A stretch of DNA of 64,000 nucleotides from Pedobacter sp. SL55 (GTDB taxonomy: Bacteria > Bacteroidota > Bacteroidia > Sphingobacteriales > Sphingobacteriaceae). A program made the position numbers and the translations under genes. Location: contig NZ_CP113059.1 of the NCBI RefSeq assembly GCF_026625705.1, positions 248,001-312,000 of the forward strand, written 5' to 3'. The notes under the pieces are model-generated. The model searched no databases, was not told the DNA's origin, and saw only the letters and a program-made list of their open reading frames with translations. This document shows, piece by piece, positions 48,756 through 64,000 of this stretch (position 1 is its first letter; each line of letters opens with the position of its first letter).

Positions 48756-49340
48756 ATGACACCTAGCTATGATTTTTCTTCAGATGCAGAGCTTATTGCT
48801 CTATTGCGTAAAGGAGACCATCATGCTTTTACAGAGGTTTATAAAAGGTTTTGGGATAAGATTTTTGTAGTAGCCTACCATAGATTAAAAGATCAAACCG
48901 AAGCAGAAGAAGTGGTTCAGGAAGTTTTTTATAGCTTATGGAAACGTAGAGAAACGCTACAATTACAATATAGTCTTAATACTTATTTAAATGCTGCGGT
49001 AAAATATCAAGTCATTAATAAGCAAAGCAGAAACTATGCAAAAAGTTCGGATGTTACACCAATGGACCAAATACCCGAACAAGGAGTAGATAGTACCCAA
49101 CTATGGTTTTCTGAACGGGAACTGAAACAACAATTAGATTATCATATAGCGCAACTGCCCGAAAAATGCCGCTTGGTTTTTAAAATGAGCAGAACGCAAT
49201 ACCTCAGTAATGCAGAAATTGCGAAACAAATGGGCGTGTCTGAGAAAGCCGTAGAAGCCCATATTACCCGAGCACTAAAGATACTAAAAGATAAATTGCA
49301 CATTGGTATCCCTTTAATCTCCTTTTTACTAGCTAAATAA
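48756..49340 (+). CDS. ECF-type RNA polymerase sigma factor (FecI/SusC-associated)
   Basis: 194 residues. Region 2 (AFTEVYKRFWDKIFVVAYHRLKDQTEAEEVVQEVF) and region 4 (LPEKCRLVFKMSR ... NAEIAKQMGVSEKAVEAHITRAL) are clear. It directs RNA polymerase to the SusC/D genes downstream when released by the anti-sigma FecR that follows 67 bp later. This sigma/FecR/SusC order is the classic outer-membrane signalling set of Bacteroidetes. Confidence 0.93.
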   Translation: MTPSYDFSSDAELIALLRKGDHHAFTEVYKRFWDKIFVVAYHRLKDQTEAEEVVQEVFYSLWKRRETLQLQYSLNTYLNAAVKYQVINKQSRNYAKSSDVTPMDQIPEQGVDSTQLWFSERELKQQLDYHIAQLPEKCRLVFKMSRTQYLSNAEIAKQMGVSEKAVEAHITRALKILKDKLHIGIPLISFLLAK

Positions 49341-49407: not shown

Positions 49408-50574
49408 TTGGACTTGAAAAAAAACAACATATCGATACAAGAAATTGCTCATAAAAGGCAAAAAGGAATTGCTACAGCCGAAGAAATCGAATTTTACGAT
49501 ACTTGGTATGCTTCTTTTGACGATACTGATTTACAGTTGGGAGATGGAGAAGAAGACTTAACTGCTGAGCTAGGAGCAAGCCTTTATGCTAGATTAATGG
49601 TGGAAATAGTACCAGAGCAATCTAAAAAAATCTGGTTTACCCCCTACAAGAAATGGATTTCAGCTGCCGCTGCAGTGCTTGTATTAGCTATTGGCTATTC
49701 GCTTTATGAAATCAATACCTTCGATAATTTATTTGGTGGTGCCTTTGCCAAACATGAGAAAATAGTTCCGGGTAAGGCCACTGCAACATTAAAGTTGGCT
49801 AACGGCCAGCTGATACAGCTTAAAGAGAATGAAGATGGACTGGTAATTGACTCTAAAAGCTTGACTTATACCGATGGCTCTGGGGTAGCTGTACCAAAGG
49901 AACAAGCTTTGCACACGCAAGAACTGTTGCTGAGCACGCCAAAAGGCGGCACTTATCAGGTGCTATTGCCTGATGGTTCTAAAGTATGGCTCAATGCCTT
50001 AAGTAGTATCAAATTGCCAGCAAATTTTGAAAGTGCTTTTGAGAGACAAGTAGAATTAAGTGGCGAAGCTTATTTTGAAATCGCAAAATCGGAAATGAAT
50101 TTAAATGGGCAGCAGAAACGTAGGCCTTTTACGGTAAATGTTGGCAATAAAAAGATAGAAGTGTTAGGTACGCATTTTAATGTGAACAGTTATGCCGAAG
50201 AACTTGGAGTAAAAGCCACCTTATTAGAAGGTAGTGTAAAAGTAGTTACTGGAAACAATCAGAAACTAATTACCCCTGGCGAACAGGCTTTAGCTACCAA
50301 CCAAAATATTACTACTGTTAGTGCAGATTTAGAACAGGTAATGGCCTGGAAGAATGGTAATTTCCAATTCTCGGATGAGAAAATTCAGCGTATCATGCTT
50401 GATATCGGTCGCTGGTATAATGTAGAAGTAGTGTATCAAGGTGCCATTACTAATGAAACCTTTGGCGGCACCATTTCTAGAAGTAAACCGATTATAGAAG
50501 TGTTAGCTTCTTTAGAAGAAACTGGAGCTGTACATTTCAAAATTGAAGGAAGGAGGGTAATCGTTATGCCTTAG
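49408..50574 (+). CDS. FecR-family anti-sigma regulator
   Basis: About 388 residues. The N-terminal 80 cytoplasmic residues bind the sigma factor; one membrane helix follows (KWISAAAAVLVLAIGYSLY), then a periplasmic FecR domain (LSTPKGGTYQVLLPDG, VWLNALSSIKLPANF, VELSGEAYFEI) and the DUF4974 C-terminal domain. The start is TTG at 49408 or TTG at 49414; there is no ATG nearby. The periplasmic part should contact the STN domain of the transporter encoded next. Confidence 0.92.
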   Translation: MDLKKNNISIQEIAHKRQKGIATAEEIEFYDTWYASFDDTDLQLGDGEEDLTAELGASLYARLMVEIVPEQSKKIWFTPYKKWISAAAAVLVLAIGYSLYEINTFDNLFGGAFAKHEKIVPGKATATLKLANGQLIQLKENEDGLVIDSKSLTYTDGSGVAVPKEQALHTQELLLSTPKGGTYQVLLPDGSKVWLNALSSIKLPANFESAFERQVELSGEAYFEIAKSEMNLNGQQKRRPFTVNVGNKKIEVLGTHFNVNSYAEELGVKATLLEGSVKVVTGNNQKLITPGEQALATNQNITTVSADLEQVMAWKNGNFQFSDEKIQRIMLDIGRWYNVEVVYQGAITNETFGGTISRSKPIIEVLASLEETGAVHFKIEGRRVIVMP

Positions 50575-50738: not shown

Positions 50739-53700
50739 ATGAAAAAATCCATTTTATTGGAGAGTAAGCCCTGCGCTTACTATTCCAATCAAACTATGGG
50801 GCGAGTAAGTAAGCTAGTTATAGTTTTACTTGCCATTTTCGCCTTTCAAGTTAGGGCCAGTTATGCCCAAACAGTTACCATCGTTAAAACTAATGCAAAA
50901 ATTGTCGACATCTTTAAAGAGATAAGAAAACAAACCGGTTTCGATTTTGTGTACACATCCTCGCAAATTAGCGATGCTAAGCCGGTAAACATCAACGTAC
51001 AAAAAGTTAGCCTTGATGAGGCACTGGTAGCCTGTTTTAAAAACCAGCCATTGAGCTACACAGTAAAAAATAAAACCATCGTTGTTAAAGAAAAATCAAG
51101 CCCAACAACTAAAACTACTAATACGCAAGTAAGATATCGCATGGTTACGGGTAAGGTAATTGATGGAGAAAAGCGTCCGTTGCCTGGTGTAACGGTGTTG
51201 TCTAAAGAGTTAAATGTGCGTACGGTAACCAATAAAGACGGTGACTACAGAATAGATGTAGTAGAAGATGGGCAAGCAACCTTAATTTTTTCCTTCATCG
51301 GGATGCAGACCCGAGAGGTGGTAGTTGGAGCAAAAACTACTGTAGATGTAACCTTATCCGATATCGTGAACGAAATGGAAACGATGGTAGTAACTGGCTA
51401 TCAAATCTTAAAAAGATCTGATGTGGTAGGCTCTGTGGCTACCATACAAGCAAAGGAACTAAATTTTAATGGTATCAATACTTTAGAGCAGGCTTTGCAA
51501 GGTAAGTTGGCTGGTTTGGTGGTTACCAACCCTAGTGGTTTGGTAGGTACTAAGCAGAATGTGCGTGTAAGAGGAACATCTACACTGGTTGGTACGCAAG
51601 AACCTATTTGGGTAGTAGATGGTATTATCCAAGAAGATCCATTGCCATTTAAGGCGCAAGAACTAAATACTGCCGGTGGCGTAACTACAGACAATTTCGA
51701 TTACCTTAGGAACTTTGTAGGCAATTCTATCCGCTGGTTAAATCCTAATGATATACAAGATATTACCATACTTAAAGATGCTTCGGCAACGGCCATTTAT
51801 GGGGTGCGTGCTGCTAATGGAGTTATCGTAATTACCACCAAAAAGGGACAGGTAGGCCCGCCGTCAATCAATTATTCTACCAATTTAAGCTTAACAGAGA
51901 AGGTAAATTACGATAGATTGAATTTGATGAATTCGAAGGAACGCGTAGCTGTGTCTAGAGAAATTTTTGAAAGAGGTTTAACCTCGCCTGTGGTAAATAA
52001 CAATATAGGTTATGCCGGAGCATTAAATGAGTATCTCTATTTGAAAACCATTAATGAGACAGAATTTAATGCTAGAGTAGCCGAACTCGAAACAACAAAT
52101 ACCGATTGGTTCGATATTTTATTCAGAAAACCGTTCAGTATGTCGCATAATTTGGGGATTTCTGGCGGTAGCACCTCTACCAGATATTTTACTTCTTTCG
52201 GTTACAACGCCACCAACGGTACCGCAATTGGTAACGATAGCCGTAGCCTAAGTGGCAATTTATCCATTGTATCCGATTTAAGAAAAAACCTTACTTTAAG
52301 TTTGCGCTTATCGGCTTCTAAAGCAACTACTAACGGGTTTTACCAAATTGCACCCTACGATTATGCCAGTAAGGTAAATAGGGTAATTGCTGCCTATCAA
52401 GACAATGGAGAACTTAACTTTTACAGAAACAGATCTGGTTATTTCTTCAATTTTATCAATGAGAGAGATCAAACAGGTAACGTGAATAATGTATTGTCTA
52501 CCAATGCTGTAATGGACGTGAATTATCAAATCTTGAAAAATTTAAGGTTTCAAACTTTATTCAGCTACAACGGTTCGGCTACCAATGGATCTACCTACGC
52601 TACCGAAAAAACAGAATATGTATCTAGAGCGCTAAGGTTTGCAGAGTATGGTATTAAACCTTCTGATGCTGCGTACATCAACTCTAGGTTGCCTATTGGA
52701 GGCGAGTATAACCAGGTGATGAACACTGGACGAACTTGGGGCTGGCGTAATAATTTGTCGTTTAACGAAACTTTTGGTAAAAAACATACCGTGGCAGCAA
52801 TGCTAGGATGGGAAACGAACAGTACGCGTTATGAGGGTTTCCAATCTACCGAATATGGTTTTCTCAGAGACAGAGGAAAGTCGTTTGCTACACTTCCATT
52901 AACCTATACTACGGCAAGAACGGTTAACCCTTTGTTGGTCTCTAACCCTACAGTGATTGACAGAAGGGTAAACACCATGGGTCTATACCTCACTACTAGC
53001 TACACTTATGCAAGTAGGTACGTAGTTAACTTTAGCATTAGAAATGATAGGTCAAACCGTTTTGGGCAGTTTACCAATGAGAAGTTCAATCCGGTATGGG
53101 CAGGAGGTTTCCGTTGGAATATTGCCAACGAAAAATGGTTTGTGGCTAACAATTGGCTAAGTGGGTTAAGCCTGCGCAGTTCATTTGGTTATCAACGTAA
53201 CATTGCTTCAAACGTTAGTCCAGATTTAATCATTAGAATACCTACTGGCGCAACAGTAAATAATACCGATGCTTTTACAGGCGAGACCTTGTTAACTGTA
53301 CGCAGTCTTCCTTACGGCGATTTGCGATGGGAGCAAACCATGAGCTTAAACTTAGGTTTAGACTGGAGCCTTTTTAACAATAAAATAGGCGGATCATTTG
53401 AATATTATACCAAGCGTGGAAGAGAATTGATTACCAGTTTAGACGTACCGGCCGAATACGGTGTAACTTCGATGCTAATAAATGGTGGGTCTATGAATAA
53501 CACAGGCTACGAACTAAGTGCAAATTTTGTACCTGTAAGAACCAGAAACTTTACATGGTCGGTTAGTTTAAACACCTCAAAAAACATTAATAAGATTACC
53601 AAAACTGGCCCACAGGTGGTAAGTTGGCAAAGCGCAGCTCTGGGTCAGTTAAATTCGGCTGGCATGCCAGTTTCTGCTTTCTATGCTTTTAGGTATACGG

Positions 53701-54338
53701 GAATTAATCCTGCAAATGGCGAACCAACTTTCGATCTTTCAGTTGCTCCGGGGGGCAATCCTAAAGATCCAACATCTTTTATGCAGTATGTGGGCAAATT
53801 AGACCCAGATTTTACTTCTGGCTTAGGGATGAATTTTAGGTACAAGATGCTAAGTTTTAGTAGTTCATTTTACCTGCAGGTAGGCGGCAGCCGCTTTTTG
53901 CCACCTTTGTACAATTATGCCGAATCTAATTCTGGTTTGCCTACAGAATATGAAAATCTTTCACGCCAAATTTTAGACAGGTGGACACCTTCTAACACAA
54001 GTGCTAGCGTGCCTGCATTGCCTAATGGTACATTGCCATTTGTTGCACTACCAAACGCAGACCAAAGATCTAACAACAATCTTTACAACTTTTACAACTA
54101 CAGTACAGATAGGGTTGTAAGCGCTACCAGCTTGCGTTGTAATGATGTGAGGGTAAGCTATGCACTTCCAGAGGGATTGGTTAAAAAGTTAAAATGTAAA
54201 AATATGTCTATAGGAGGAGGTGTATCCAATCCATTTACAATAAATAGCCGAGACTTTAGAGGCATAGACCCTGAGGTAGCTTTGGGAGGCCAACCAAGAA
54301 CCAGAAATTATACGGTAAACCTAAACCTAAGTTTGTAA
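50739..54338 (+). CDS. SusC-family TonB-dependent transporter with STN signalling domain
   Basis: 1199 residues. After the signal peptide (ending near SYAQ) comes an STN/secretin domain (about residues 47-115, IVDIFKEIRKQTGFDFVY), then a carboxypeptidase-regulatory-like domain (VTGKVIDGEKRPLPGVTV), TonB box (TMVVTGYQ), plug (VDGIIQED, ILKDASATAIYG) and a long barrel ending in VNLNLSL. The STN domain means that ligand binding is reported to FecR, so the whole locus is probably switched on by its substrate. Partner: the SusD encoded next. Confidence 0.95.
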   Translation: MKKSILLESKPCAYYSNQTMGRVSKLVIVLLAIFAFQVRASYAQTVTIVKTNAKIVDIFKEIRKQTGFDFVYTSSQISDAKPVNINVQKVSLDEALVACFKNQPLSYTVKNKTIVVKEKSSPTTKTTNTQVRYRMVTGKVIDGEKRPLPGVTVLSKELNVRTVTNKDGDYRIDVVEDGQATLIFSFIGMQTREVVVGAKTTVDVTLSDIVNEMETMVVTGYQILKRSDVVGSVATIQAKELNFNGINTLEQALQGKLAGLVVTNPSGLVGTKQNVRVRGTSTLVGTQEPIWVVDGIIQEDPLPFKAQELNTAGGVTTDNFDYLRNFVGNSIRWLNPNDIQDITILKDASATAIYGVRAANGVIVITTKKGQVGPPSINYSTNLSLTEKVNYDRLNLMNSKERVAVSREIFERGLTSPVVNNNIGYAGALNEYLYLKTINETEFNARVAELETTNTDWFDILFRKPFSMSHNLGISGGSTSTRYFTSFGYNATNGTAIGNDSRSLSGNLSIVSDLRKNLTLSLRLSASKATTNGFYQIAPYDYASKVNRVIAAYQDNGELNFYRNRSGYFFNFINERDQTGNVNNVLSTNAVMDVNYQILKNLRFQTLFSYNGSATNGSTYATEKTEYVSRALRFAEYGIKPSDAAYINSRLPIGGEYNQVMNTGRTWGWRNNLSFNETFGKKHTVAAMLGWETNSTRYEGFQSTEYGFLRDRGKSFATLPLTYTTARTVNPLLVSNPTVIDRRVNTMGLYLTTSYTYASRYVVNFSIRNDRSNRFGQFTNEKFNPVWAGGFRWNIANEKWFVANNWLSGLSLRSSFGYQRNIASNVSPDLIIRIPTGATVNNTDAFTGETLLTVRSLPYGDLRWEQTMSLNLGLDWSLFNNKIGGSFEYYTKRGRELITSLDVPAEYGVTSMLINGGSMNNTGYELSANFVPVRTRNFTWSVSLNTSKNINKITKTGPQVVSWQSAALGQLNSAGMPVSAFYAFRYTGINPANGEPTFDLSVAPGGNPKDPTSFMQYVGKLDPDFTSGLGMNFRYKMLSFSSSFYLQVGGSRFLPPLYNYAESNSGLPTEYENLSRQILDRWTPSNTSASVPALPNGTLPFVALPNADQRSNNNLYNFYNYSTDRVVSATSLRCNDVRVSYALPEGLVKKLKCKNMSIGGGVSNPFTINSRDFRGIDPEVALGGQPRTRNYTVNLNLSL

Positions 54339-54425
54339 AAGATGAAACGGCTATGATTTTCAAAATCAAATTGAAGAGAAATTAATCGTAGCAGCTTTTT
54401 AACAAATAAAACAAAATTTAAGTAG

Positions 54426-55934
54426 ATGAAAAAAATATTTTTATACAACCTCATTTTCTTAGCCATGACCTTTTGTTCGTGTAAGAAATTTTTAGAGGAA
54501 TATAGTCAAGACGAAATGCGTCCGGGATCTACGGATGATTTAGCGGCATTAATGTACGGCGATGCCTATCCTTACATTGCAAGGATAGAAACATTTGAAG
54601 CACTTACCGACGATTTGCAGAATAACCCTTTGGTAGGTGTAAATGGGGCGCCCATTCCAGCCTATCTCACTACTTTAGAGGCTGCTACCCAAATGTTTAC
54701 ATTTAACCCTGTAATGTTCGATGCCATTACCACAAGTACCGATGTAGGTAATCTTTACGGTACTGCCTACCTTAAAATTAAAGGCTGCAATGTAATTATC
54801 GATCACTTAGATAAAGTGTCTGGTACCACTGTAGACAAAAACGCGATTTTAGGACAATGCTTGTTTTTACGTGGGTTTTACCTGTTAAAAGTAGTAACTA
54901 CGTATGCGCAGATGTACAATGCGCCTGGTGTAGACCCATCTACGGCAATGGGCGTGCCTTTGGTATTAAGTAGTCAGGTTAAAGATGGTGGCTTAACTAG
55001 AAATACATTAAAAGAAGTGTATGATCAGATTGAAAAAGATTTAATTACAGCTGAAGAACTGTTAAGAAACAACTATAACCCCACCACTGCATTTAGAGTA
55101 GGTAGTGATGTGGCCAACGGTTTACTTTCTCGTTTTTATCTTTACAGAGCAATGGCAGGAGATGCCGATAAAGCAATACAAGCTGCTACACGTGCCCTTC
55201 AAAATAGATCTACTTTAACGGTTTTGGCCAGCCAAGTGGCAGCCAATGGAAGCATTTCTGCCAATGGTATCTACAACGCAGCTAGCCCAGAAGTACTTTG
55301 GGTGTATGGTGGTATTCATCCCGAACTGCTTAACGTAAATGTAGATTCAAGATCGTTGCCACCTTTTTCAGTATCAGCAGACCTTATTGCGCAATACGAT
55401 AAAGGCACTGGAACTTCCAACTATGGCGATCTTCGTTACCAATACTATTTTCAGTTTTTTACCGCAGGCGGTAGCAGATTTCCTTACCGAACGGCTAAAA
55501 ACACCTTAAATGTACAGTACGGATCTAGAGGTTTTAGAGTAGCAGAACTTTACCTTAACCGTGCCGAAGCCTATGTTCAAAAATATTTAGCAAGTGGCGA
55601 TGCTGCAGACAGAACAGCGGCACTTGCCGATCTTAATGCGCTGCGCATGAGTAGGTACGATACAAGAAATACGGCCTACACGCCAATAAACATTAGCGAT
55701 GCACAGGCTTTGTATAAGTTTTGCCAAGAAGAGCGCAGGAGAGAGTTGGCCTTAGAGGAGGGACATCGTTTCATTGATTTGAAGAGATGGAGAATGGGTG
55801 TAACCCACGTGTTTACCGGAAGCGATAATGTAACCAGTGCTTACACTTTGCCAGCTAATAGCCCGCTGTTTGCTTTGCCAATTCCATTTAATATTATGGT
55901 GGCAAATCCTAACCTAATTCAAAATCCAAGATAA
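54426..55934 (+). CDS. SusD/RagB-family outer-membrane lipoprotein
   Basis: 502 residues with a lipoprotein signal (FLAMTFCSCKKFLEEYS). The SusD layout is evident: N-terminal SusD-like_3 part, TPR helices (LGQCLFLRGFYLLKVVTTYA), and the C-terminal RagB block (ADLNALRMSRY, CQEERRRELALEEGHRFIDLKRW). It caps the transporter encoded 87 bp upstream. The substrate is unknown; peptidase genes downstream suggest peptides. Confidence 0.94.
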   Translation: MKKIFLYNLIFLAMTFCSCKKFLEEYSQDEMRPGSTDDLAALMYGDAYPYIARIETFEALTDDLQNNPLVGVNGAPIPAYLTTLEAATQMFTFNPVMFDAITTSTDVGNLYGTAYLKIKGCNVIIDHLDKVSGTTVDKNAILGQCLFLRGFYLLKVVTTYAQMYNAPGVDPSTAMGVPLVLSSQVKDGGLTRNTLKEVYDQIEKDLITAEELLRNNYNPTTAFRVGSDVANGLLSRFYLYRAMAGDADKAIQAATRALQNRSTLTVLASQVAANGSISANGIYNAASPEVLWVYGGIHPELLNVNVDSRSLPPFSVSADLIAQYDKGTGTSNYGDLRYQYYFQFFTAGGSRFPYRTAKNTLNVQYGSRGFRVAELYLNRAEAYVQKYLASGDAADRTAALADLNALRMSRYDTRNTAYTPINISDAQALYKFCQEERRRELALEEGHRFIDLKRWRMGVTHVFTGSDNVTSAYTLPANSPLFALPIPFNIMVANPNLIQNPR

Positions 55935-55959
55935 ATTCATCATCACAAAAATTGATCTC

Positions 55960-56903
55960 ATGAAAATTTATTTGAACATATTACTTGCACTGCTAGCCCT
56001 TGTTGGCACAAGTTCATGTAAAAAAGAAAAAGAGGTTTTACAACCTTCTGATATTGATGTAACCTATAACGTGCCACAGGGAAGTAATGCATTTGACCAA
56101 ACTATAGTAAATTATTACGAAAAGTACGGCAGCTATTTACTATACAAGTTTAACGAACGCGATGCCTATTGGACTCCAACCGGATGGAAGAAACCTGTGG
56201 TAAGTGCTGCCGGTAATTGGAGCGTTGGTGCCGATTTGATAGCAGCAGAAGAAAGTGCTATCCCGGCACAGTTAGATTTGTTAGATAAAAGCCTGTTCAT
56301 TCTTTATCCTCAAAGTTTTCTTAAACAGTTTCTGCCAGTTAAAATTTTGCTATGCAGCAAAGTAGATTCAATTTATACAGCCTATGTTTTTAACCCAACG
56401 TATACTGCAACTAAAGGTGTTAAAAAAATACCAGCTTATTATAACTATGATAATATTTCAGTGAACTACGGCGATGCTACAATAAACCAAATGACCAATG
56501 CCGAAAAATTAGCTTTTTTGGCAAGGGTAAATCAGGTTTTTTCCAAAGTATCAACGAACGTGCGCTTATTAAGCCTAGTCAGGAGTTCATTAATAGTGCA
56601 GATTATAGTACTACTAACGCAACCCAAGCAGTGGCCTATGGTAAAGGAATTATACCAAGTTATACCTCGTCTATTACCCCAGTTAGCGATTGGAATGCCT
56701 ACGTAATGGCCATGGTTACCTTGTCTGAAGCAGACCTGAACCGTTCGGTAGCCAATACCAATACCAGTCCGGTGGGTATCTTAAATCCAACAAAAGATAC
56801 TAACAGGTTAATCCAAAAGCGTTACAACATTGTTAGAAATTATTTCATCAACACTTTTCAAGTAGATCTTCAAGCCATTGGAAATAAAGCTAGAGGGTTG
56901 TAA
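55960..56903 (+). pseudogene. SusD-linked lipoprotein, frameshifted in a T-run; resembles the zinc-metallohydrolase lipoprotein family but lacks HExxH
   Basis: The first frame (from ATG 55960) has a lipoprotein signal (LVGTSSCKK) and ITIVNYYEKYG-like helix then LLYKFNERDAYW, and goes astray after VNQVFSK. The second frame continues with ALIKPSQEFINSADYS, DWNAYVMAMVTLSEA and a tail IQKRYNIVRNYF to 56903. Adding one T to the T6 run at 56537-56542 gives VNQVFFQSINERALIKP and one protein of about 314 residues. Layout and place resemble the substrate-import-associated zinc metallohydrolase lipoproteins found next to SusD genes, but where HExxH would be I read QSINERA, so it is probably not catalytic. 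The family call is tentative. Confidence 0.7.
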
Positions 56904-56975
56904 TTTTTTATTATACACACAAATAAATGTATCGTCCACGGGTTAGCCGTGGCGATATTTTTCAAACACACAGCA

Positions 56976-59426
56976 ATGAAACTACTTAAAAAGTTGTTGC
57001 TAATTGGACAGTTGTGCCTCGCCACTACGGTAATGGCACAAACTACACCACTTCCGGCAATACAAAAGTTTATAAAACCTAGCGCCGCAAAATACGCAGG
57101 CGTATTTAACGTATACTTACAAGAAGATAAATATTACCTAGAAATACCCGATACGTTATTGAATAGAGATATTCTCTCTATGATTGTCATCAATAAAGGA
57201 TCAGCACAGGTATCGAGAGATTCTAGAAAACGTTTTGGTTTTTCTGGCGATGTGGTACATGAAGCCGTTTTTAAATTCAATAAAGGGAAAAAGGGAGCAA
57301 TAAATATAGAACAATCGCAGTTTTACGTAGCTCCTAAAAATGAGAAACTAAGCACTTACGAAGCAACATTGAAAAACAAGGTTGCACCTATCGTGTCAAC
57401 CTTTGCACCAGTAGCACAAGATGCTACAGCAACACTCATAGATATTACCGCTACATTTAACAGCGATATGCCGTTTCTTTCGCTTAGCGGCGGAAAAGAC
57501 GAGTTAGGTCTTGGCCCTTATCAGTCCAATATGTCGCGTCCGTTAGGTGTTGCTGCTTATAAAAACAATATTGTTTTTCGTTCAGTTAGGGCTTACGGTG
57601 CAGGCGCTGCTACACCCAAACCACAAGGCTTAACACCGGCCGAGCCTCAGCAGCCAGCAGAACAAGATAAGCAAATGAACGGGCCAACAATATGGGAAAT
57701 TGGCGCAAGCTGGTATTTATTGCCTGCCCAACCCATGCGCCAAAGAATTGCAGATAAAAGGGTAGGCTATTTCACTAGGTCAATTGTAGATTATTCGAAA
57801 AATGCCAATAAGACAGTAGATAGAGGCTTAGCTGCCCGATGGAAAATTGAACCTAAACCACAAGACATAGAGAAATACAAACGTGGCGAATTGGTAGAAC
57901 CAGCAGAGCCCATTGTGTTTTATGTAGATAAAAATACGCCAGCATATTTACAACCGTATTTTATTGCCGGTGTAAATGCTTGGCAAAGTGCTTTTGAAAA
58001 AATTGGTTTCAAGAATGCCATAATAGCCAAAATGGAACCTACACCAGAAGAAAATCCAGATTTTTCGATAGATAATGCAAGTTACTCGGTAATTTCTTAT
58101 AAGCCTTCTACTACAGCCAACGCTTACGGGCCAATGGTAGTTGACCCACGTTCCGGACAAATCATCAGTTCGCACGTTGCGGTTTTCCATAACATTACAG
58201 ATTTACTGCAGCGTTGGTATTTTATCATGTGTTCGGTAAATGATCCCGAAGCCCGAAAATTACCTTTATCACAAGATATCATGGGTCGTTTAATGAAGAT
58301 GGTAATTACACACGAAGTTGGTCATACCCTTGGGCTTAGACATGATTTTGCCGGCAGTCATACCTACGATGTAGACAGTGTACGTAATAAAGCATTTGTA
58401 GCTAAAAATGGTTTTGGCGCTTCTATTATGGATTACCTAAGGTTCAATTATGTGGCACAACCAGAAGACGGCTTTACCGCCGAAGAGCTTTTACCTAAAA
58501 TCGGTATTTATGATGATTATGCGATTGAGTGGGGCTACAAATACTTTCCACAGTATAAAACTGCAGAGCAAGAAGCCGAAGTTTTGAAAAATTGGGTTAC
58601 CCAAAAACGTAAAGATCCAAGGTTTTTTTATTTTCCAGAAGGCGATTTCTCAGATCCGAGGGTGCAATCTGAAGATATGGGGAGTAACGCCATGAAAGCT
58701 GGTACACTTGGCATCAAGAACTTAAAAGTGATTATGCAAAACTTAGAAGCATGGCTCGAAAAAGATGATGATGAGAACTACACCATGATGAAAAGAATGC
58801 ACAGTGCCGTGGCAAGCAGGTATAACGAATATTTAGCCCATGTGCTAAAAAATATTGGCGGCAGGTATGCCGATCAGGCTTTGGTAATAGAAGATAAACC
58901 AAATTACCAACCGGTTAGCAGAGCAGTGCAAAAAGAAGCCATGGCTTTTATTAATGAGTATTATTTTAAAGAACCCAAATGGCTTTTTCCTGATCATATT
59001 GTAGATAAGACAAGATTTACTTTTGCGGGCCCGGTAGCTGCAGATTACGAAACTTTCTTGGGTAGAGTGTTTTTCAAGTTTTCTTCTATTTCTAAAAACG
59101 AACGTATTGTTGGGCAGCAACAGTATCAGGCCAGTGAGTTTCTAGCTGATATCTATAATGGCGTTTTTTCAGATTTGGAGAACGAAACACCAATTTCTGA
59201 ATATAGAAGAACGCTACAACGTGGCTATGTGAACAAGCTCTTAAGCTCGGTTTATAATTCTGCAAACGACAATGATGTTGCAATTATCTTAAAGCAACAA
59301 ATAGAATCGGTAAAGCAATCTTGCGATAAAGCATTACAAAAGCAAACAGATGCCACTACTAAAGCGCACTTAAATGCAATTTCAGCAATGATCCAACAGT
59401 GGCAAGGCAAAAAGCCAACAAGTTAA
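56976..59426 (+). CDS. Zinc-dependent metalloprotease with DUF5117/DUF5118 domains
   Basis: 816 residues from ATG 56976, where the signal peptide starts (MKLLKKLLLIGQLCLATTVMAQ); nine more upstream codons are open. The N-terminal half is the DUF5118/DUF5117 region (YLEIPDTLLNRDILSMIVI, RSIVDYSKNANK). The catalytic motif HEVGHTLGLRHDF has zinc ligands His446, His450 and His456 with Glu447, the metzincin-type HExxHxxGxxH; the Met-turn is probably ASIMDY. It should act in the periplasm or at the outer membrane on proteins or peptides. A sister protein without the zinc site follows directly. Confidence 0.93.
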   Translation: MKLLKKLLLIGQLCLATTVMAQTTPLPAIQKFIKPSAAKYAGVFNVYLQEDKYYLEIPDTLLNRDILSMIVINKGSAQVSRDSRKRFGFSGDVVHEAVFKFNKGKKGAINIEQSQFYVAPKNEKLSTYEATLKNKVAPIVSTFAPVAQDATATLIDITATFNSDMPFLSLSGGKDELGLGPYQSNMSRPLGVAAYKNNIVFRSVRAYGAGAATPKPQGLTPAEPQQPAEQDKQMNGPTIWEIGASWYLLPAQPMRQRIADKRVGYFTRSIVDYSKNANKTVDRGLAARWKIEPKPQDIEKYKRGELVEPAEPIVFYVDKNTPAYLQPYFIAGVNAWQSAFEKIGFKNAIIAKMEPTPEENPDFSIDNASYSVISYKPSTTANAYGPMVVDPRSGQIISSHVAVFHNITDLLQRWYFIMCSVNDPEARKLPLSQDIMGRLMKMVITHEVGHTLGLRHDFAGSHTYDVDSVRNKAFVAKNGFGASIMDYLRFNYVAQPEDGFTAEELLPKIGIYDDYAIEWGYKYFPQYKTAEQEAEVLKNWVTQKRKDPRFFYFPEGDFSDPRVQSEDMGSNAMKAGTLGIKNLKVIMQNLEAWLEKDDDENYTMMKRMHSAVASRYNEYLAHVLKNIGGRYADQALVIEDKPNYQPVSRAVQKEAMAFINEYYFKEPKWLFPDHIVDKTRFTFAGPVAADYETFLGRVFFKFSSISKNERIVGQQQYQASEFLADIYNGVFSDLENETPISEYRRTLQRGYVNKLLSSVYNSANDNDVAIILKQQIESVKQSCDKALQKQTDATTKAHLNAISAMIQQWQGKKPTS

Positions 59427-59452
59427 TTATCATCAATGCTGACAACAAATAA

Positions 59453-61789
59453 ATGAAAAAAATATTCTCTATAGCAATTTTGGTGTGGGCCTGTGTGGTC
59501 CACTCGGTTGCACAGCAAGCAAAACCTAGCGTCCCTTTAACCTTCGATAAATTTTTCAAGGATAAAATGAACGAGGTTAAAGGACATTTTCCAGTATATC
59601 AACTAGATGATAAATATTACCTCCAAATTGGTGCACAGCAATTAAATAAGGATATCCTCGTAGCGGGAGATATTCGTTACGGTAGTGCTAACATTTCTAA
59701 ATCTTCAGGCGTACTTAAATTTACCAAAGGTCCGGGCGAAAGTTTATACGTAACTAGAAGTAACTATAGCGAACAGGCAATAGACAATGCCCCAATGGCT
59801 AATTTGCTAAGCGGATCAACATTAGAGCCCATCAGTTTTACTTTTAAAATAGAAGCTTTGGGTAAAGATACAGGTAGTTACATTATTGATATTACCAAAC
59901 AACTCATTGATGGTGGCGAACTGTTTTCGTTCAAAAATTACAGCCAAATCGCTAATCCAGACCCCTCTAGGTCTGCTGTAGAAAGTGTTGTGGCAATTAG
60001 CAATGGGGTAGCTTTTAATGTATACAGATCTCAGAACAATTCGGGAAGAGACTATAACGGAAAAGCTATTGAGCAAGCATCTACTTTCCAAATGGGCTTA
60101 GTGTTGCAAGAGCTTTCGGCTACGCCAATGCCAATTCAATTAAGCGACCGAAGAATTGGTTTCGAAACTCGCTCATTTACAGATTTTGGATTAGCCGGAT
60201 ACGCCGCAAAAAAGGTCAACATCATTAAAAAATGGTACTTACAGGTAAAACCTGAAGATGCTGTCAAATATAAAAACGGCAGTTTAGTAGAACCTCAAAG
60301 GCCAATTGTAGTTTACCTTCATCCATCAATCCCAAAATTTTTGATGAATGCAGTAAAAGATGGCGTGTTGGCTTGGAACAAGTGCTTCGAAACAGCGGGA
60401 TTTAAAAATGCAATCAAAGTAATTCTTCCCGAAAACTCTACACAGCAGTTAATGGAAGAGGGTACGGTACTCATTGCCTGGGGTGGTGTAGCCAATAAGC
60501 CAGCTGTAGAAACCGTTGAAGATCCACGTACTGGAGAAATAAAAACGGCAAAAATCACTTTGTCCGACTTCGTGATCGATGATTTGCTTCAAAAATACTT
60601 TGTGCAGGTTGGTGCTAATGACATACGTATCCAAAAAGATGCTTATTCTCCCGCAGTTAGAAGCGATATTTTGAAGTTTAAAGTAAGCCAAGGCATGGCA
60701 CAGGTATTGGGTATGTTGCCTAATTATGCAGGTAGTGCCGCTTATAGTGTACCACAGGTAAGTAATCCGCAATGGGTAATGCAGCATGGTTTTACCTCAT
60801 CTATTACTGATGATTTAGAGTTCAATTACCTGATGGTGCCCACCAAGAATTTCAATAGCAAATTGCTAATTCCAAGCATTGGTGCTTATGATCATTTTGC
60901 GATCAACTGGGCTTATCGTCAGTTTCAAAACGACCAAGCCAAACCAAATTTTTTAAAAGATGGCAAAATAGATCCAGTTTATTTTTATGCAGCCGAAGAT
61001 AAAAGCAATCCGCTAAGCCAAGCAAAAGATTTGTCTTCACAAAACATAGAAGCAGCGCAAAAGGGCATCAATGGGCTCATTGCATTTTACCCTAAATTAG
61101 ATGGTATTGCCGCCAAAATGGATGATGATACCTGGGACACCTACATGTTATTGGCTGCAAATTTTATCATGTCTTATGATCAGTACGTTACCAGCGTACT
61201 CCCAAATATTGGCGGTAGGCAACGTTTTACCGTAATGAAAGGATATAACACGGTACCGTTGATGTATACACCCAAAGCTAGACAGCAAGCCACATTTGAT
61301 TTCTTGTACCAAAATGTACTTAAAGGAGTACCAGCATGGACTAGAAACGATAGGGCACAATTTACCGATGGTTCTAATACAGAAACGTTGGTAACCAAAA
61401 CAGCAGTAAAAGTAGTAAATGCCTTAATTAACGCCGATTTGATTAAAAATCTACTAGAGGCAGAAAATTCTGGCCAAAAAGATGTTTTTGGTACTAAAGA
61501 CTTGTTCCAAAACATTGATCGTTACGTGTTCCAAAACTTTGATCCTAAAATAGCACTTACGGGCTACCAACGTAATGTGCAATCTACATTAATTAGAAGT
61601 TTACAGGCATTGGTAGCTAAAAACAAAATTGGTGCAGGCCTAAGCGATATCAGTGTGGTTTTAAATACTTATACAACTGCGCTTAATGAGCGCATCGGTC
61701 AGATGGCAAAATCACATACAGATGTATTAACCAGAGAACATTTTCAGTTAATGAAGATGTTAATGGACAACGAACAAAATGCGAAATAG
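59453..61789 (+). CDS. Catalytically dead paralogue of the DUF5117 metalloprotease
   Basis: 778 residues with a signal peptide (ILVWACVVHSVAQQ). It aligns along its length with the protein encoded just upstream: both have ADKR/SDRRIGFETRS-like and KWYLQVKPEDAVKYKNG blocks, GFKNAI, VEDPRTGEI, DLLQ, then the motif region and SITDDLEFNY. At the zinc site, HEVGHTLGLRHDF of the neighbour is replaced by QGMAQVLGMLPNY: Gln413, Gly414, Gln417 and Pro423 stand where His, Glu, His and His should be. The rest is intact and the frame is open, so it is a kept pseudoprotease, not a decaying gene. Possible roles are substrate binding or control of the active partner. Confidence 0.9.
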   Translation: MKKIFSIAILVWACVVHSVAQQAKPSVPLTFDKFFKDKMNEVKGHFPVYQLDDKYYLQIGAQQLNKDILVAGDIRYGSANISKSSGVLKFTKGPGESLYVTRSNYSEQAIDNAPMANLLSGSTLEPISFTFKIEALGKDTGSYIIDITKQLIDGGELFSFKNYSQIANPDPSRSAVESVVAISNGVAFNVYRSQNNSGRDYNGKAIEQASTFQMGLVLQELSATPMPIQLSDRRIGFETRSFTDFGLAGYAAKKVNIIKKWYLQVKPEDAVKYKNGSLVEPQRPIVVYLHPSIPKFLMNAVKDGVLAWNKCFETAGFKNAIKVILPENSTQQLMEEGTVLIAWGGVANKPAVETVEDPRTGEIKTAKITLSDFVIDDLLQKYFVQVGANDIRIQKDAYSPAVRSDILKFKVSQGMAQVLGMLPNYAGSAAYSVPQVSNPQWVMQHGFTSSITDDLEFNYLMVPTKNFNSKLLIPSIGAYDHFAINWAYRQFQNDQAKPNFLKDGKIDPVYFYAAEDKSNPLSQAKDLSSQNIEAAQKGINGLIAFYPKLDGIAAKMDDDTWDTYMLLAANFIMSYDQYVTSVLPNIGGRQRFTVMKGYNTVPLMYTPKARQQATFDFLYQNVLKGVPAWTRNDRAQFTDGSNTETLVTKTAVKVVNALINADLIKNLLEAENSGQKDVFGTKDLFQNIDRYVFQNFDPKIALTGYQRNVQSTLIRSLQALVAKNKIGAGLSDISVVLNTYTTALNERIGQMAKSHTDVLTREHFQLMKMLMDNEQNAK

Positions 61790-61790
61790 A

Positions 61791-62903
61791 ATGAAAAAAT
61801 TAATGATAGTAGCTTTGATGCTCGTACTGGGCATCTCGGCAAAGGCGCAAAACAGAGCTATCAATTTCGAAAAATTGACTTTTCAAGAAGCCTTGTTAAA
61901 ATCTAAAAAAGAGAACAAGCCCATTTTTGTGGATTGCTACACTACTTGGTGTATTCCTTGCAAACGCATGGAGGCAGATGTGTTTACTTTAGATAGCGTG
62001 GCCGATTTTCACAACCAAAACTTTATCAATATTAAAGTAGATATGGAAAAAGGCGAGGGGCCCGATTTGCGTAAAACATATACGGTAGAGGCCTATCCAT
62101 CTTATTTAATTGTGGATGCCGATGGTAAAGTGAAAAATAAATACGTAGGAGGCATGGCCGCCAAAGATTTTTTAGCGAATGCTAGAAAAGGGTTAGGCAC
62201 CAGCGAAGAAGCCAGGTTAAACGCACTTTACGAAAAAGGAGATCGTTCGCCAGAGTTCATGAGAAATTACATCAAACATAAAGTTAAAGTAATGGAAATA
62301 TCAAAGGCTAAAGCACTTAATGTAGAGTTAATGGGGTTGCTTACGCCAGAACAAAAGGCTACTCCAGAAAATTGGTTCCTTTTTGGCCAAAACAGATATA
62401 CCATGTACCTGTCTGATTTATTTAGCCCTAATTTTAAATACCTAGCAGATCACTGGAAAGATTTCGTAACCAAAAATACAAAGGATACAGTAGATAAGAA
62501 ATTATCGTCGGTATACAGACAAATAGCCTCTTGGACACTTAATGGTTTTTATGTAAAAGTGAAACCTTATGATAAGGCTACTTACGAAATGTACAAGGCA
62601 CAAATTAAAAAAACAGAAACGCCAGATAAAAAGCAATTATTGGTAATGATGGACATTGCTATGGCGGCAGGAGATAAGAACATAGATAAAGTAACTGATT
62701 TATTCTTGAAACACTTGGGTTCTTTTTCGGAAGATAACCGCCGCATTCTCTTTGACTATGTTACTTTCGCTACATCTATAAAAGGATACAATTATCCAAA
62801 AATTGCTGCCCTTTCAGATGAGATTGAAAGGACTTCTACTAATCCTTTTTTGGTTAGACAGTTTAAAAGCATGAAAGAACGTTATGCAAAAAAAGCAAAT
62901 TAG
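61791..62903 (+). CDS. Exported thioredoxin-like protein
   Basis: 370 residues from ATG 61791 (signal peptide MKKLMIVALMLVLGISAKAQ); an ATG at 61779 overlaps the previous gene and gives a poorer signal. The thioredoxin domain (about 25-150) has the redox pair WCIPC (Cys54, Cys57) after FVDCYTT and the cis-Pro in AYPSYLIV. A helical C-terminal region of about 220 residues follows. It is periplasmic and may reduce or shuffle disulfides in substrates or in the locus's own proteins. It follows the pseudoprotease stop by 1 base. Confidence 0.92.
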   Translation: MKKLMIVALMLVLGISAKAQNRAINFEKLTFQEALLKSKKENKPIFVDCYTTWCIPCKRMEADVFTLDSVADFHNQNFINIKVDMEKGEGPDLRKTYTVEAYPSYLIVDADGKVKNKYVGGMAAKDFLANARKGLGTSEEARLNALYEKGDRSPEFMRNYIKHKVKVMEISKAKALNVELMGLLTPEQKATPENWFLFGQNRYTMYLSDLFSPNFKYLADHWKDFVTKNTKDTVDKKLSSVYRQIASWTLNGFYVKVKPYDKATYEMYKAQIKKTETPDKKQLLVMMDIAMAAGDKNIDKVTDLFLKHLGSFSEDNRRILFDYVTFATSIKGYNYPKIAALSDEIERTSTNPFLVRQFKSMKERYAKKAN

Positions 62904-64000
62904 TTTAGTAGGCCTACTGTTGGTTTGTTGTGTGTATGTATACGCACAGCAGGCCAATTATGAGGCTGCAAAAAAATACGATGCGCCTCATCTTTCTAAG
63001 CGCATAGGCACATTAAAGGTAATTCCATTTTTCCTTAAAAAAACCAACAGCTTTTGGTTTTTAGCCGAGCAGCCTTCGTTTTCTGGTAAAGAAAGCGATA
63101 CGCTTACCAATAAAGATAGGGTCTACCATATTGTTGATCTAAAAACTGGCAAAAAGCAAGAGCTCTTTGATAAGAAAGCAATTGCCAATCAGCTACAACA
63201 ATTTATAGGAGAAAAATTTAATAGCAAACAGCTCAGTTATTTCCCTAATTTTTCGGAAGACGAAAAAACAGTAAAGCTAAAATACGGTTCTAAATCTTAC
63301 AGCTACAATTACCTAAGTAAGCAACTTACCGAAGATCATGAAGGCCAGCAACCAAAAAAAACATATCCTAAATTTGGTGTTTCGGCAGATGGTAAATGGG
63401 AATTGTACACCCGTGCGCACAACCTATACATTGCCAGTGCTGCCAATAAAGAAAAAGAGCAGCAACTCAGTAAAAATGCCGAACCCTATTATTCGTTCTG
63501 TGTAGATGAAAAAGGAGACTATACGGTAGATAAAACCTATCCTTCTACAGCAAAATGGGTTACAGCGAGGTATTTTTATGCCTTAAGAATAGATAAGCGA
63601 AAGGTGCAAACCATGTCGGTAATCAATTCTGATGTTACACCTAGGCCGCGAGTTTCTACCTACAAGTATGAGTTGCCAGAAGATAAAGATGTTGCCCAAT
63701 ACGAACTGATGATTGGAGATGCAAACAGCAGTACGATAAAGAAAGTAAATTTGGAGCGTTGGCCAGACCAGCAGTTAGAAGTGGTTGCAGCACCAGGTAA
63801 TTCGGAAGAACTCTTTGTGATACGCCGTAAACGAACCAGAGACGAAATGGAACTTTGCGCCGTAAATTTGGCCAGTGGAGAAGTAAGGTCGGTTATTCAT
63901 GAAGTAAGCAAACCTTTTATCAACGAAGATTTTTTCAATGTCTCCATTTTAAACGGAGGAAACGACATTATTTGGTGGAGCGATAGAAGTGGCTGGGGAC
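62884..64000 (+). CDS. S9 (prolyl oligopeptidase/DPP IV-like) peptidase, N-terminal part; runs off the window
   Basis: The ATG at 62884 overlaps the end of the thioredoxin gene by 20 bp in another frame. The protein opens with a signal peptide (QISLVGLLLVCCVYVYAQQ) and continues as a beta-propeller (FGVSADGKWELYTRAHNLYIAS, VDLKTGKKQELF, IWWSDRSGWG) for 372 codons to the window edge without a stop. The propeller with DGKWELYTRAHNLY and the SDRSGW block is that of S9 dipeptidyl-peptidase-like enzymes; the catalytic alpha/beta-hydrolase domain lies outside. It would trim short peptides in the periplasm. Confidence 0.88.
   Translation, partial: MQKKQISLVGLLLVCCVYVYAQQANYEAAKKYDAPHLSKRIGTLKVIPFFLKKTNSFWFLAEQPSFSGKESDTLTNKDRVYHIVDLKTGKKQELFDKKAIANQLQQFIGEKFNSKQLSYFPNFSEDEKTVKLKYGSKSYSYNYLSKQLTEDHEGQQPKKTYPKFGVSADGKWELYTRAHNLYIASAANKEKEQQLSKNAEPYYSFCVDEKGDYTVDKTYPSTAKWVTARYFYALRIDKRKVQTMSVINSDVTPRPRVSTYKYELPEDKDVAQYELMIGDANSSTIKKVNLERWPDQQLEVVAAPGNSEELFVIRRKRTRDEMELCAVNLASGEVRSVIHEVSKPFINEDFFNVSILNGGNDIIWWSDRSGWG

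Follow-up and report, generated by a model that had tools for sequence, protein, structure and literature searches.

A zinc-site-less sister gene beside an exported metzincin of Bacteroidota: a candidate two-part protease

Dead sisters that serve as obligate protease subunits are already known from the M16 family. As described in the relevant parts of two articles (PMC12731061, PMC11266112), the bacterial forms of M16B consist of an active and an inactive homologue whose genes lie side by side; the M16B heterodimers include mitochondrial processing peptidase (MPP) alpha/beta, SPH2681/SPH2682, TTHA1264/TTHA1265 and AlbF/AlbE, and the dead subunit of MPP is essential and helps to bind the substrate. 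A second precedent is the ADAM branch, whose pseudopeptidases, according to the section on them in the review PMC11266112, have the metzincin fold and no working zinc site, and are kept for non-catalytic work. In the open-licence PMC literature we found no mention of DUF5117, DUF4953 or Peptidase_Mx1, no work identifiable by title, among the papers listed, on an active/dead protease pair in Bacteroidota and no inactive-paralog metalloprotease tandems in Bacteroides; a search of the same literature for pseudopeptidase together with metzincin returned the review PMC11266112 alone, in the text of which 'Bacteroid-' is absent.

The stretch of DNA that we analysed (the window) comprises 64,000 nucleotides from Pedobacter sp. 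SL55, and all of the genes discussed from it lie on its + strand. An active-type exported Met-zincin, which we call ACT, is encoded at 56976..59426 (the ATG at 56976 is a possible start, and an in-frame GTG lies at 56949), and a pseudoprotease with the same domain set, which we call PSE, is encoded at 59453..61789, with 26 nucleotides between the ACT stop and PSE and with the next gene beginning at 61779, within the end of PSE. The original prediction held these to be adjacent exported proteins of the DUF5117 type that can be aligned over their full length, and this was borne out: both frames are present, the two proteins align end to end with 26% identity (E 1e-77), and both N termini are hydrophobic and signal-peptide-like as judged by eye. 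Both proteins, made up of DUF5118, DUF5117 and PF16313 regions, also score above the Pfam cut-offs for PF17162, PF17148 and PF16313 'Met-zincin', the PF16313 scores being 334.9 bits for ACT and 174.3 bits for PSE (cut-off 24.2). A chance alignment of the two is ruled out by these PF16313 scores together with the E value. The genome contains three more PF16313 genes, all of which keep HExxH.

The zinc site of ACT, HEVGHTLGLRHD, lies at 58311..58346 (residues 446-457) and is followed by the Met-turn SIMDY at 58422..58436 (residues 483-487). The former zinc site of PSE, QGMAQVLGMLPN, lies at 60689..60724 (residues 413-424), and its former Met-turn, SITDD, at 60800..60814 (residues 450-454). Position by position, we confirmed the claim that ACT keeps HExxHxxGxxHD and that PSE has Gln, Gly, Gln and Pro at the His, Glu, His and His columns; the Gly of the motif is retained in PSE and the last position is Asn. 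The Met and Tyr of the Met-turn are gone as well, and its Asp is retained. Thus, ACT combines the PF16313 profile with HExxHxxGxxH/D and the Met-turn, whereas PSE matches the profile and has Q, G, Q, P and T in place of the three His ligands, the Glu and the Met-turn Met of a catalytic metzincin, lacking the hallmark zinc site described for its own sequence family (Met-zincin PF16313 with DUF5117 and DUF5118). Predicting the structure of each partner, as had been proposed along with these claims, gave AlphaFold2 models with pLDDT 89.9 (ACT) and 89.7 (PSE), both of which show the metzincin fold, so that the catalytic domain of PSE is predicted to have kept this fold. When the whole PSE model was compared with the PDB using Foldseek, nothing was found at E 0.001 or less, and the best match of the ACT sequence to the PDB had an E of 0.38.

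In pairing an active zinc peptidase with a homologue that lacks the zinc motif, encoded by an adjoining gene, ACT and PSE resemble the bacterial M16B pairs as these are portrayed in the articles cited above. They differ in that M16B peptidases have HxxEH and a clam-shell fold, as outlined there, whereas ACT has the metzincin motif HExxHxxGxxH and matches PF16313, with no M16 family among the Pfam matches of either protein; in addition, ACT and PSE are exported, are encoded in SusCD operons, belong to a type of pair that arose more than once in one family, and would form a complex that is so far a candidate. PSE is like the ADAM-branch pseudopeptidases in its predicted metzincin fold, its loss of a working zinc site and its apparent retention for non-catalytic work, and unlike them in belonging to a bacterial tandem pair, the ADAM proteins being described in that part of PMC11266112 as animal membrane proteins.

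The pair sits in an operon, and the genes of this region encode an ECF-type sigma factor (48756..49340; Pfam Sigma70_r4_2, Sigma70_r2), a FecR-type anti-sigma factor (49408..50574; FecR, FecR_C), a SusC-like TonB-dependent transporter with an STN domain (50739..54338; STN, CarbopepD_reg_2, Plug), a SusD-like lipoprotein (54426..55934; SusD-like_3, SusD_RagB), a further lipoprotein (55960..56903), ACT, PSE, a thioredoxin-like exported protein (61779..62903; Thioredoxin_7, Thioredox_DsbH) and an S9 peptidase (62884..64000; DPPIV_N, Peptidase_S9), the last of which is cut by the window end and complete in locus L107. A genome scan yielded 51 loci, 13 of them with a PSE-type gene, and with the addition of whole-genome searches, in which two or three first-look candidates were scored per genome, we read 20 loci with their flanks. 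The order SusC-SusD-lipoprotein-ACT-PSE-thioredoxin-like-S9 was found at all 20 loci (19 genomes), the S9 peptidase had its GHSGG in 20/20, and FecR lay 5′ of SusC at all 15 loci for which the stretch was long enough. In Chitinophaga sedimenti (L015, 7526-9977) ACT is broken up into two frames of 299 and 627 aa that overlap, and the dead partner is intact. The SusCD 'utilisomes' of gut Bacteroidetes likewise bring together SusC, SusD and other operon-encoded outer-membrane proteins; in the portion of PMC7618045 that introduces them they are described for glycans, whereas the operon of ACT and PSE holds peptidase relatives.

Across the 20 syntenic loci the His, Glu, His and His columns were intact in every ACT, whereas PSE lacked the catalytic Glu in 20/20 and all of the ligand His in 19/20, the exception (L106) having a single ligand His, in the first of these columns. 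Several acidic residues and H755 (19/20) are conserved in PSE, as might be expected of an enzyme with some other chemistry or another metal site. Against such an enzyme, we found no His/Cys cluster replacing the former zinc site, and most of the conserved acids are common to ACT and look structural; we therefore regard this explanation as very improbable.

To place PSE among its relatives, we compared the best 120 of 305 database matches. None of the 48 nearest PSE relatives among the matches listed had HExxH, nor did two further proteins of the best 120 (P0100 and P0120), and the other 70 kept HExxH and were at most 29% identical to PSE. All 120 of the ACT relatives compared (the best 120 of 7,854 matches) had HExxHxxGxxH. 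For 22 of the 48 dead proteins the longest contig has the same length as that of an ACT relative among the matches listed, which suggests a common contig. The genera from which the PSE relatives come include Pedobacter, Mucilaginibacter, Pseudobacter and Chitinophaga; these dead relatives, and the PSE-type loci in other genomes, rule out an oddity of a single species.

Selection on the pair could be estimated in the window's clade from two unsaturated pairs of loci, the other ten pairs having dS >2 or not being computable. The dN/dS values (NG86/YN00) were 0.077/0.109 for ACT and 0.071/0.092 for PSE in L011/L101, and 0.057/0.071 for ACT and 0.088/0.096 for PSE in L010/L016; in these two pairs PSE thus ranged over 0.071-0.096 and ACT over 0.057-0.109. 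The PSE frame was open over 725-820 codons in 20/20 loci. In the DUF5117 part conservation was alike in the two proteins (0.61 in PSE, 0.60 in ACT), and in the protease core it was 0.59-0.64 in PSE versus 0.80 in ACT. This less conserved core, with the lost ligands, is what one might see if PSE were a duplicate in decay or an artefact of annotation, but the low dN/dS, the open frames and the age of the loss, which is clade-wide, rule out decay and make such an explanation exceedingly improbable. The case for a maintained pseudoprotease was to fall if homologues of the second gene kept HExxH or if dN/dS were high. Neither was found, the motif being absent from the 48 nearest relatives among the matches listed and from all 20 syntenic copies and the dN/dS being low, and hence PSE is a maintained dead protease homologue with an intact frame, as predicted. 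Its specific job would be one such as capture, chaperoning or regulation.

A second disarmed peptidase may be encoded in the same operon. The lipoprotein gene at 55960..56903, whose first frame is open only over 55960-56706, has relatives that match PF15890, which scored above its cut-off in 2 of 4 copies of the lipoprotein and, in a wider check, in the copies of 8 of 14 genomes; TIGR04549 stayed below its cut-off in 4/4. None of the 20 operon lipoprotein frames (the window's frame being incomplete) contained HExxH. To compare operon and non-operon loci alike, we sought HE..H on the frame under each PF15890 match (30 of 37 matches had a locus), and found HExxH at 17/17 non-operon loci of the same genomes versus 0/13 operon loci. 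Judging from these profile matches, the operon lipoprotein is probably a divergent Peptidase_Mx1 relative without the motif. The window's copy has a frame change near 56520, which leaves 248 aa open versus about 313 aa elsewhere and makes it the sole broken copy of the 20; this could be an assembly error.

We then turned to the history of the genes. In a tree of 81 rows, which included 35 of 64 solitary active rows, the 20 PSE formed one clade and the 20 ACT another (SH-aLRT 100 each), and these two clades together with four further dead proteins formed one group (99) separate from the solitary active rows. The ligand loss in PSE is thus old and common to the entire clade. We also built maximum-likelihood trees for seven operon genes from 19 of the 20 loci, the window's locus being left out. 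The ACT and PSE trees agreed closely (r 0.982, or 0.980-0.986 whichever locus is dropped), with 14 of 16 splits in common and no conflicts at support >=95. The SusC, SusD and lipoprotein trees also agreed with one another (r 0.88, no conflicts), and the thioredoxin-like and S9 peptidase trees nearly did so (r 0.80, one conflict). Comparisons across the three blocks gave 4 to 19 supported conflicts, including 14 between the adjacent lipoprotein and ACT and 13 between the adjacent PSE and thioredoxin-like protein. In AU tests the PSE alignment accepted the ACT tree (p 0.469) and the ACT alignment was borderline on the PSE tree (p 0.049, dlnL 11), whereas all other tree swaps were rejected at p <=0.0082 (dlnL 45 to 1338), even those within the SusC-SusD-lipoprotein block (dlnL 45-93). 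Among the seven genes, therefore, only ACT and PSE fit a common tree.

Because the blocks conflict with one another and ACT and PSE do not, 50739-64000 of the window looks like a mosaic of SusC-SusD-lipoprotein, ACT-PSE and thioredoxin-S9 blocks, in which ACT and PSE bear no sign of separation. Such agreement is expected from co-adapted partners; joint transfer of neighbours could also produce it, yet outer neighbours that lie equally close were separated. What the agreement demonstrates is common inheritance, not contact. It also bears on the possibility that PSE is a free peptide-binding protein of the same pathway that makes no contact with ACT and collects the peptides released by ACT for SusCD import or for FecR/STN sensing. 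An operon with SusCD, FecR and STN would suit such a protein, as would the lipoprotein beside SusD, a motif-less peptidase relative that likewise seems to have become a binding protein, and Tma108 and Ebp1 are thought, in the passage of PMC11266112 that treats them, to bind polypeptides via pseudo-active sites. However, a protein that only worked in the same pathway ought to have no need of one particular ACT, and ACT and PSE follow one tree and the SusCD block another; moreover, dead genes also occur in tandems with different recognised neighbours (L226, L231 and L232). We consider a free binding protein unlikely.

In the window's family 7 of 301 genomes had PSE-type genes, and in the family of genome G681 7/344 did, the latter count not being a frequency because the sample included genomes reached via the loci themselves. 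Searched for separately, ACT-type genes turned up in exactly these 7+7 genomes, which were 7/301 of the first family (at 887.5 bits or more, against 590.1 for the best other gene) and, in this search, 7/338 of the second (weakest 647, the split gene; best other 617.5). A class-wide search of 395 genomes, with a threshold that missed the Butyricimonas type described below, found two PSE-type genomes, both already known. In the same two families many active relatives occur without a PSE-type gene, and a dead partner is therefore not needed in the family generally. That most ACT relatives manage without one also speaks against PSE being devoted to ACT as its inhibitor, as an aid to its folding or as an escort in its secretion, without handling substrate, a role to which the adjacency, gene order and common history of the pair would apply equally well. 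The PSE model, in addition, keeps its full length and an exposed former cleft domain, which would go beyond an escort's needs, and we think this role quite improbable.

Starting from a Butyricimonas protein that is one of the ACT relatives, we reached seven genomes with 129 genes, from which we drew a census of 125 genes in four genomes (Butyricimonas sp. Marseille-P3923, B. synergistica, Candidatus B. faecavium and Sanguibacteroides sp. GM7, with 45, 52, 11 and 17 matches), the other four genes being those of the three further genomes. The first 20 Bacteroidales stretches were picked as adjacent pairs, and the census was then extended to the rest. It contained 97 intact genes, 25 that lacked all three ligand His (9 of which keep the Glu) and 3 that lacked the third His only. 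All 25 dead genes and all 3 third-His-only genes lay directly 3′ of an intact gene, with gaps of -75 to +75 nucleotides from open frame to open frame, in the M16B-like side-by-side arrangement of active and inactive homologues that is also found at 20/20 syntenic loci. No dead gene was found among 82 first or solo genes, and 15 later tandem genes were intact. The position of the 25 dead genes gave a Fisher p of 6e-16, which is not a probability of independent events because the census genes are related. Since 15 later tandem genes are intact, a tandem need not hold a dead gene, and L100 is another active-active tandem. As to whether the second gene always lacks the motif, it does at 20/20 syntenic loci, and every dead gene of the census directly follows an active one, but the rule is broken by the intact later genes.

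In two of the Butyricimonas genomes (those of L024 and L031) a single Met-zincin query matches 45 and 52 genes at E 1e-40, so that one family of exported proteases is unusually expanded there, and in Sanguibacteroides (L231, 2837-16151) five Met-zincin genes run active-dead-active-dead-active. The three second genes that lack only the third ligand His (G1031:C4:212877, G1032:C1:1674372 and G1032:C13:59388) keep HExxH and have Asn, Asn and Asp at that position, and may mark an early step of the loss seen in the dead genes.

The tree of active and dead genes needs five losses, whether the motif region is included (14 solitary active rows) or excluded (6 rows), and the three of these five for which the context is known are all active-then-dead pairs: type I (the window's clade with L218-L224), type II (L225 and L227) and type III (L226, L228, L231, L232 and L234-L237). 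The active partner of L228 falls on a different branch from the other type III partners. P0120, a separate loss, was sought in 247 genomes and had no match at 1e-150. A change of the third-ligand His to Pro (LPN; 60719-60721 in the window's PSE) recurs in type I, type II, P0120 and L234 of type III, and may be a shared structural solution. At all seven type I loci of Butyricimonas the pair is preceded by SusC, SusD and a lipoprotein that lacks HExxH, with S9 or thioredoxin-like genes 3′ of it in 5/7; searched against Pfam and NCBIfam, the seven lipoproteins matched no peptidase family, neither PF15890 nor TIGR04549. The dN/dS values there (NG86) were 0.051, 0.071, 0.090 and 0.164 for the dead genes and 0.018, 0.037, 0.083 and 0.146 for their partners, and in 5 of 6 comparisons overall (NG86) the dead gene evolves somewhat faster than its active partner.

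The reading that we favour, to which we assign a probability of roughly 0.6, is that PSE, a maintained pseudoprotease without zinc ligands, would be the dedicated non-catalytic half of an exported metzincin made up of two proteins. It builds on the findings above that the site is dead, the fold is predicted to be kept, selection is purifying, the gene neighbourhood is fixed, the two gene types co-occur and have a single history, and such pairs originated repeatedly. As products of consecutive genes of one operon, ACT and PSE would form a hetero-oligomer in which ACT does the cutting, while PSE would hold or present a polypeptide, or shape ACT, via its kept N-terminal DUF5117 part and former cleft; the products would be imported or processed with the help of SusCD and of the thioredoxin-like and S9 proteins. 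We infer the physical complex, the holding role and the polypeptide nature of the substrate from gene-level evidence, and by analogy the best reading is that the pair may work like the M16B pairs, with a metzincin fold. More tentatively, and with slightly less than even confidence, we propose that Bacteroidota evolved a two-subunit exported metzincin independently at least three times, with the second tandem gene as a dead substrate-holding subunit, and that in the window the lipoprotein, an unrelated zinc peptidase, was likewise disarmed; two of the four proteins that descend from peptidases would then be the binding parts of a polypeptide capture-and-import machine.

For annotation, the 25 dead genes among the 125 family genes of four genomes cannot be zinc proteases of ACT's type, and 8 of the 48 dead proteins among the matches listed are named 'zinc-dependent metalloprotease' at NCBI; both call for correction. 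If the favoured reading is true, an exported metzincin version of the dead-sister subunit, encoded in SusCD operons and repeatedly evolved, would amount to a new architecture and would offer a natural experiment on the reasons for which proteases acquire a dead partner. The role of bacterial pseudoproteases becomes testable by clean deletion of the genes, with the independent pairs as replicates and the partnerless active genes as controls. The pairing hints at an unrecognised two-part protease in some Bacteroidota, one that seems to have arisen several times.
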